Below are positions 18,316 to 21,657 of a stretch of 36,400 nucleotides of DNA, in pieces. The notes under the pieces are model-generated. The model was not told the DNA's origin and did not search any database. It worked only from the letters and a program-made list of their open reading frames with translations. The DNA comes from Gammaproteobacteria bacterium (GTDB taxonomy: Bacteria > Pseudomonadota > Gammaproteobacteria > GCA-2400775). The position numbers were made by a program, and so were the translations under genes. The DNA is taken from positions 1 through 36,400 of the forward strand of contig JAESQP010000147.1 of NCBI GenBank assembly GCA_016765075.1, read 5' to 3'. How positions within the stretch are numbered: position 1 is the first letter of the stretch; the number at the start of each line of letters is the position of its first letter.

Positions 18316-18618
18316 TCAGCGTCGCTTCGCAGTGACATGAGTTTTGGCGTTTACACTATCTCGCAAGTATTCGATAAGCAAGATATCGCTAACGTCAGTC
18401 GTGCGTAAAATATGCTGCATAGTCTCTGAGATCATTAACCACCTCGTGGTTGATGACTTGTAAAATATCACCCGCAATGAGTCCTGCTCTGGCAGCAGCG
18501 AGCCAGTGATAACATTGCTTAAACGCACACCTGTGCCAGCGTAATCACAGTCAGGAACTGTGCCGATGCTGGCTTTCTTACTCACCGATCCCGTCGGTGG
18601 CAGGCTCTGTCGTGTTGT
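18316..18618 (-). pseudogene. decayed C-terminal PDZ domain of the upstream M1-M28 peptidase
   Basis: Directly after the peptidase stop (TAA at 18621-18619) the same frame continues with a linker and KASIGTVPDCDYAGTGVRLS, the usual opening of a PDZ domain in M28 peptidases. Near 18490 the PDZ homology moves to another frame (AGLIAGDILQVINHEVVNDL), consistent with loss of one base. Near 18397 it returns to the first frame (VSDILLIEYLRDSVNAK). One stop codon and two compensating frameshifts thus separate a recognisable PDZ domain from its enzyme. I treat it as a remnant, not an independent 89-residue gene. Confidence 0.8.
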
Positions 18619-21600
18619 TTAGCTGCCATCAGGCAGCTTCATTTCACCAAGTTGCGTTGTTAGCGGTGCAGGGCGCTTTGCTAAATATTCCAATGTTTCT
18701 CGTACTACACTGGCGACTTTAACAAGGCCTGCACTATCTATCTTATCTACAGTGTCACTGGGGCGGTGGTAGTCAAGATGAATGCCACTGAAAAATTGTA
18801 CGCCAGGTACGCCAATTTCATGAAAGTTAACATGATCACTGGCGCCAAAAGGTCGCTTGTTGAGTTTGGTTTTAATGCCGGTGACAAAGCCAACGCCACG
18901 AAAGATATGCACCCATTCGCTCGCCGAGTCAGCGCCAAAAATACTGATAATGTTATCACCTAAACGACCCACCGCATCGAGGTTCAATATGGCTATCGCT
19001 TGCTTTACTGGATAGCGAACATTATTAGTAACGTAATAATCAGAGCCTAGTAGACCCGCTTCTTCACCAGTAAAGGCAACAAATATGACTGTACGTTCTG
19101 GCTGCCATGCTTTACCTAAAACACGAGCCAGCTCTAACATCACGGCAACGCCGCTGGCATTGTCATCGGCGCCGGGGTGTATTTTCCCTTTATTGCCTTC
19201 GCGCACATCTGGCCAACCACGACCGAGATGATCGTAGTGGGCGCCAACGACAACACTTTGGCCTATATATAAAGGGTTAGTTCCAGGCAAAATTCCAATG
19301 ACGTTTTTAAGTGTAATATCAGTACCGAGTTTGGCAATATCGGCACGCCATTGTTGAAAATAATCATCGTCATAGGTTTGCAGGCCGGCTTGTTGAAACA
19401 CATTGGCAATATAGTCAGCGGCCACATCAAGTTCGTCGCTGCCAAGCCCTCGCCCCGCAAGTTTCTTGCCTGCAAGGTAGTTAATATCGTCCATCATGCG
19501 CTGCTCGGAAAATACTGGTGCTAGCTCGGCTAACGCAGGGCGTGGTACAGATTTTAAGGGCGCTATTGTCTTATCACTTAAGATTTTAAGTAAAGGCGAA
19601 TGAAGCACTGGCCATTGCCCCTTACTAACATTTTCGGGTTCATTGCCAGTAAAGGCGAGATAGCTGTATTTTCCATAGTGTGGCAATTTGCGTGCTATGC
19701 CGGGCAGGGCAGCGAGATTCTCGCTAGCAAGCCAGAGAATAGTCTGAGCAGGGTTCTGCGGGTGGCGACTAGTGACAACAACCGAATGTGTGTCACGTGA
19801 ATAGATATTGCTGCCAATGACAAGTTGGTCATTATCAATAACACTTTTGTGAGCCGTGATCTGGTCTGATATCACATGCCGAAAGTGGTTGTTCCAACCG
19901 AGTAGCCAGACCGCTTTATCGTCGGGCAAATGTTCAAGTTCTGTATCCAGTATGAGCGTCAATTGAACACGCTGACCTTGTTGCCAGCTTGAAATAAGTT
20001 GGCGATAGGCATCGATGGTTTCATCATTTGCTGACCCGGGTAGCACAGCCAAGGCTTCGCTTGCACCAAACCCTTGTGACAAGGCGGACGGAATTTCGCG
20101 AGCATCTAGCCGGCGAAATACATCAAACTCGGGGTCAACCATGACGCTAAGAAGGGTTGCAGGGGCATTGATGGCAATGCTGTTGCGGCGTTTGTTTAGA
20201 GAAAGTAAAAATTTTTCAGAATGTCCATCAGAAAATTGTGCAATGACGGGTACAGTGAGATCGTAAAGTGCATCGCTCTGTGTTTGTTCTATTTCTATGA
20301 TTAATTTTTCGCTCGTATCGGGTAGCTGAATATGTTTGACCTTGCTCAGGCGTAAACTCGGCGCGCCACTGCGATCAAGCCATTGTGTGAAAAAGGTGCT
20401 GAGGTCTTTTTTTGAAACTTCGCTAAAGACTTTGGCGAGATCGCTAAAGCTGGCTTTTTTAAAGCGGTATTGTTTATAGAGTTGGCGCAGGCCTTGGCTA
20501 AACGTTTCATCACCCAGTTTTATTCTGAGCATATGAAATAACATCAATGACTTGCCATAGCCTACTGCTTCAGATGCAGAATCATGCCGTGAGCGAAATT
20601 GATTTAAGGGGAAGTCGCGGCCGGAACTCACGTAGTCGCTATATTTTTGCAGGCTATTGCGACGGTACAGGACAGCATTGCCGCGTTGTTCGGCAATTAA
20701 ATGATCAGCAAGGTACGCGGTAAGTCCTTCAGCCCAATTACCATTTTGGTGGTCGACAAAGACACTATTACCCCACCAGTTATGCAAAATCTCATGTGGG
20801 TATGAGCTATGTAATATAAAGGGAAAGCGCATAACACGCGGGCCAAGCAAAGTGAATGAGGGCATGCCAAAGCCGGTTTCCCAAAAATTTTCTATTGCGG
20901 CAAATTTTTGATAAGGGTATTTGCCAAGAAGTTTTTCATACATCGCTAGATACTGAGCGCCAATATCGAGATATTGTTGCGCTAATGATGGATCATCCTC
21001 GCGTAAATAAACCTGTACTTCGATATTATCGGCTTGTTGGCTGTAGAGTTTAAACGGTGCAGCCACAAGATAAATATCATCTTGTGGTGACCGTTCGACC
21101 CAGCAAACGTTGTTCATGTCGCCAAGGGGGTCATGCTCTGTCTTTGCTCCTGCACTGACTGCAAGCCAAGGCGATGGTATGCTGATTTCAAGTTCAAAGC
21201 TAACCAAGCTATTGGCAATAGTTGGATACCAGGCAGAACCGCCATCAAGAAAAACACCATTTTCATCGATAATACCTTCAGTAGAACTGAAGCTGCGTGC
21301 ACCATCGAAGTTGGGTTGCTGTAAATCGTGATTGATGACGCCTGCATAGCGCAGCGTAATACGCTTGCTATCCGGTATTTCTGTTAAACGATAAAGACTA
21401 AGATGCGAGGATATGTTTTGTTGCGTTAGTTTTTCAATAGCATCATGCTGTTCAAGTATCAGATCACGATGCAATAAAAACTCGACTGAATCGTTATTGT
21501 GAGCAAACTCATCGGTAAAACTCAGGGTGTCAATAACGCTAATATGCGACTGCGCAGGATCAATCACGACCTTGAGTTGATGATGGATGGTGGCATTAGC

Positions 21601-21657
21601 ACAATGGCTAAATAGCAATAACAGTAATAAAAATGAACGTAGGCGTAGTGGCATCAT
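18619..21657 (-). CDS. secreted double metallopeptidase: M1-like plus M28 domains
   Basis: A 1012-residue exported protein. A Sec signal peptide ([17 protein letters not shown]) is followed by an M1-like aminopeptidase half, with zinc motif HEILH at 288-292 and the third ligand Glu310 in NWAEGLTAY. Only 17 residues separate them, where classical M1 enzymes have 18. The C-terminal third is an M28 aminopeptidase with ligands in [33 protein letters not shown] and DYHRPSDT, all intact. Two peptidase classes in one chain suggest stepwise digestion of peptides in the periplasm or outside the cell. It ends in LPDGS just before a decayed PDZ domain, so the protein is probably C-terminally shortened. 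The ATG Met-Met start at 21657 is compatible with the signal peptide. Confidence 0.9.

Follow-up and report, generated by a model that had tools for sequence, protein, structure and literature searches.

Probable recent decay of a C-terminal PDZ domain in a gammaproteobacterial M1-like/M28 metallopeptidase, with an apparently independent loss in a sister species

Introduction

The closest relatives of the peptidase described here are gammaproteobacterial M1-M28-PDZ fusion peptidases, such as the copy in public record JAADIY010000053.1 (a MAG, G002 below), which has the same domain order and the same neighboring genes, and is 73% identical to our protein over the M1-M28 portion. Unlike these fusion peptidases, our copy stops before the PDZ domain. 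More distant comparisons can be made domain by domain. M28 aminopeptidases of solved structure (2ek8, 1amp/1rtq, and YwaD, 6hc6) share the M28 catalytic domain by sequence match, but their chains of 291-455 residues have no M1-like domain in front, whereas our protein does. The first PDZ domain of DegP/DegQ (4a8a, 1ky9) aligns with the PDZ domain of the intact relatives; in DegP/DegQ the PDZ serves a serine protease, while in our locus it has decayed. A literature search on M28-PDZ proteins, PDZ pseudogenes and domain loss, judged by titles, found nothing related.

The DNA analyzed here, which we call the window, is a stretch of 36,400 nucleotides that makes up contig C147 (JAESQP010000147.1) of a 2.0-Mb gammaproteobacterial MAG (G000). 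Its order is sampled by five genomes, all from a single genus.

Results

The window peptidase gene lies on the minus strand between a DUF389 gene upstream and an HNH endonuclease gene downstream. Its open reading frame (18619..21657) encodes 1012 amino acids and ends at a premature TAA. Pfam finds both Peptidase_M1 (PF01433, 54.9 bits against a cut-off of 27.7) and Peptidase_M28 (PF04389, 157 bits), and the catalytic motifs that we looked for are present, in keeping with the initial annotation's view that the enzyme domains upstream of the lesions are intact. The M1 zinc site consists of HEILH at residue 288 followed by the Glu of NWAEG at 307, the HEXXH + Glu arrangement of family M1. The HxD, DDN, EE, NLD and H motifs characteristic of family M28, which we take to supply the metal ligands, occur at 807, 830, 864, 892 and 961 and are invariant across the genus.

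GxMEN is the exopeptidase motif of peptidase family M1. It is absent from all 56 homologues, the window protein among them, and we therefore name the domain ‘M1-like’ and regard its own activity as uncertain. HEXXHxW is found in 54 of the 56, as is a 17-residue spacing from HEXXH to the next Glu. The signature of this M1-like family of 56 homologues, which includes the window protein (18619-21657), is unusual in that GxMEN is missing throughout and HEXXH is paired with the 17-residue spacing in 54.

The decayed PDZ coding region (18316..18618, minus strand) was delimited by tblastn, with the PDZ domains of two intact relatives, G002 and G003, matching positions 18579-18319 at E values of 2e-13 and 7e-15. 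As first proposed from the bare sequence, PDZ homology thus continues past the TAA, and it reaches 18319, next to the native stop at 18316-18318. Alignment with full-length M1-M28-PDZ homologues, the check suggested at the outset, bears out the TAA and both frameshifts and shows the PDZ whole in G002 and G003. All of the lesions are on the minus strand. The TAA (18619..18621) falls in the M28-PDZ linker, where G001, G002 and G003 all have a sense codon. The frame changes, originally placed near 18490 and 18397, align as a net -1 at approximately 18499..18501 and a net +1 in a T run at approximately 18407..18410, at most about 12 nt from the earlier positions. The alignment also adds a lesion to the earlier list: roughly 24 nt (18581..18604, ends approximate) have been inserted in frame between the TAA and the PDZ, include a 6-bp inverted repeat, and are missing in the three relatives. 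We considered whether this insert could be a mobile palindromic element, but a search of the window's genome allowing up to three mismatches returned only its own copy, and the idea is unsupported. The -1 and +1 offset each other, which keeps the reading frame beyond the TAA open as far as 18316, though its middle is scrambled, and the resulting ORF (18316-18585, minus strand, 89 amino acids) matches no Pfam family when translated, with no PDZ model above the Pfam cut-off. Compared with the intact orthologues, this region carries several disabling lesions, as a decayed domain would.

Within the genus, the intact protein occurs in two other species, G002 and G003, at 1099 and 1101 amino acids, and its PDZ_2 domain scores 41.1 and 40.7 bits, respectively (Pfam cut-off 27). 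DUF389 and HNH genes also flank both of these copies. In a third species, G001, M28 is intact and the reading frame departs from the PDZ no more than roughly 12 codons away from the same boundary. Relative to the two intact copies, the G001 PDZ carries net -5, -4 and -1 indels, the window PDZ carries the stop, the insert, the -1 and the +1, and no lesion is common to both. The G001 copy adjoins an HNH gene, and its contig ends inside the peptidase gene. No match to the peptidase was found in G004, which is 52% complete. In the M1 tree the window species groups with G001 as its sister (support 98/75, which is not a strong branch). A predicted structure of an intact relative, made from a two-row alignment, had a mean pLDDT of 32 and was not used.

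Selection on the two C-terminal domains was estimated with a four-taxon maximum likelihood codon model in which codons touching gaps or stops were masked. Overall omega is 0.133 for the PDZ and 0.0585 for M28. When the terminal branches of the two broken copies are given their own omega for the PDZ, it is 0.122, vs 0.146 elsewhere, and forcing omega = 1 on the broken branches costs 20.4 lnL units. When part of a terminal branch is made neutral, the fit drops by 1.84 at 10% neutral for the window and by 1.92 at 20% neutral for G001, so the neutral share may be up to about 0.10 and 0.20, respectively, with a best estimate of 0 for both. The PDZ remnant thus shows no rise in omega, the window PDZ has no excess of amino acid changes, and the codon models set no more than an upper limit to the neutral period. 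For M28, freeing the truncated lineages gives an omega of 0.075 vs 0.046 and improves lnL by 1.06 units, which is not significant.

To place these losses in a wider setting, we surveyed domain architecture in 369 genomes of the class and then searched further orders. The 369-genome survey yielded 17 genomes outside the genus that match from M1 through PDZ in one frame, along with two more partial matches reaching the PDZ (G037, G215). Further orders added two, nine (two of them partial) and one PDZ-reaching matches, and the orders of G040 and G308 added no further ones. All 31 PDZ-reaching matches outside the genus are free of stops inside the match, and none of the surveyed genomes outside the genus yields a match in which M1 and M28 are retained and the PDZ is missing. 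Many other matches are M1 only. In genus g72, three genomes have full-length copies and five have copies ending at query position 681-724, one of which (G385) is cut by a contig end. The M1-only copies of this second genus (G381, G382, G075, G383) are truncated from the C-terminus as in the window, but unlike the window copy they have lost all of M28-PDZ, and three of them bear scars of the lost part. A clean deletion is seen in G381, where the start of M28 is joined directly to the final bases preceding the native stop; G382 and G075 retain remnants of the M28 start behind a new stop. These scars, one clean deletion keeping the native stop and two remnants, lie at L211:2300-2530, L210:2375-2500 and L208:2576-2690. 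The copy with the clean deletion and those with remnants sit on separate tree branches, indicating at least two losses of the whole M28-PDZ portion. M1-only copies also occur beside full-length ones in genus g153 (three copies) and in the order of G105 (one copy). An architecture tree counting 55 of 56 rows, with L188 left out as cut by a contig end and L187 and L048 scored as full length, requires seven architecture changes, the direction of which is shown only where scars exist.

Finally, we scanned orthologues for disruptions, covering 472 kb of the 2.0 Mb of G000, 225 kb of the roughly 2.2 Mb of G001, 660 kb of G002 and 345 kb of G003, in comparisons that are blind to short compensated frameshifts. 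In G000, disrupted orthologues were flagged in 4/85 comparisons from G002, 1/53 from G003 and 1/28 from G001. With G001 as the target, the counts were 1/26 (G002), 1/9 (G003) and 1/30 (G000). On inspection, several of the flagged stops prove to be located near gene ends, or at or upstream of probable starts, and the peptidase gene stands out. The orthologue comparisons show no sign that G000 and the related assemblies are generally frameshift-ridden. Two individual genes merit mention. The only argininosuccinate lyase gene (argH) of G000 (L124:18982-19998; contig C19:18982-20223) has one lone in-frame TAA and shares 88% identity with the G001 copy, which is intact; this stop could be a consensus error, a polymorphism or a sign of arginine auxotrophy. 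In G001, two further partial matches represent one decayed M48 peptidase (L099:713-1480, contig C12) that is interrupted by several stops and lacks a large internal segment; the gene is in one frame in G003, and it is a second decayed peptidase in G001.

Discussion

We consider it highly probable that the window species has undergone recent, real decay of the PDZ domain after a nonsense mutation, that the shortened M1-like/M28 enzyme has been kept, and that the same domain was lost independently in the sister species. The ancestral gene would have encoded a metallopeptidase, probably exported, with an M1-like domain, an M28 domain and a C-terminal PDZ. Since the intact PDZ resembles those of the DegP/DegQ type, it may have served, by analogy, to recruit substrates or partners. 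Its selective value would have been lost recently in the window species, and a nonsense mutation in the linker that joins M28 to the PDZ would then have ended the protein after an intact M28, with the untranslated remainder beginning to gather indels only afterwards. The accessory PDZ has likely stopped mattering, and would leave behind a two-domain enzyme with intact catalytic motifs, presumably still produced and active.

The initial annotation had offered real decay and assembly error as alternatives, and real decay is most likely on the sequence comparisons, chiefly because the sister species broke the same domain differently while G002 and G003 keep it intact and other orthologues show only isolated breaks. 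That the actual gene is intact and that sequencing or assembly errors cluster in one region of the MAG is improbable, though several features invite the idea: the indels come without excess substitutions, the +1 sits in a T run, and the only argH copy has an isolated stop, a sign that the consensus may carry errors. Individual bases of the window may also be wrong. Such errors would have to be matched in a separately assembled species, broken within the same 300 bp, and would include a 24-nt insert with an inverted repeat, an unusual type of error. By rough arithmetic, the probability that three random frame-breaking lesions in a 3.3-kb gene all fall within the final 0.3 kb is below 1 in 1000, and this clustering is repeated in G001. 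Apart from the peptidase gene, the 4/85 and 1/53 orthologues flagged in G000 are mostly ORF-end effects. The absence of detectable relaxed selection in the PDZ does count against decay to a degree, but the bound on neutral time leaves room for the lesions seen. With a best neutral share of 0 in the window PDZ, lesions outrun substitutions, and purifying selection over most of each terminal branch implies that the PDZ died late.

The same codon record bears on two further readings. The PDZ may already have lost its use in the ancestor shared by G000 and G001, with both copies decaying after one shared loss, as the grouping of the two in the M1 tree might suggest; we think this unlikely, given that the copies have no common lesion, the inner PDZ branch is close to zero, and purifying selection acted on both terminal branches. 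Codon selection lasting until recently could also mean that stop readthrough or programmed frameshifting still yields a longer product in some molecules, and both the frame that stays open to the native stop and the small inverted repeat that comes after the TAA would fit. Yet that product would carry the scrambled PDZ middle seen in the tblastn alignment, the intact relatives read in a single frame, and the G001 copy has no such insert and carries its own stops, all of which make this the least credible of the alternatives. Recent and independent decay of the PDZ in the two species remains our preferred reading.

Modular C-terminal loss of the kind seen in the window peptidase is ordinary, and its recurrence makes it somewhat interesting. 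We tentatively raise the possibility that members of this peptidase family have repeatedly been trimmed from the C-terminal end, losing the PDZ alone or the whole of M28-PDZ while the M1-like core is kept. M28-PDZ would then count as an optional module that is lost convergently, and its loss may be favored once a partner or substrate goes.

In practical terms, annotation of the window species should not list a PDZ domain in this peptidase. More broadly, the locus would offer a case of gene decay at the level of a domain, in which the enzyme is kept while an accessory PDZ is dying, caught early enough for its timing to be bounded and seen again in a sister species. Alongside the M28-PDZ losses elsewhere, the PDZ losses could provide a natural series on what the M28 and PDZ domains add to an M1-like peptidase.
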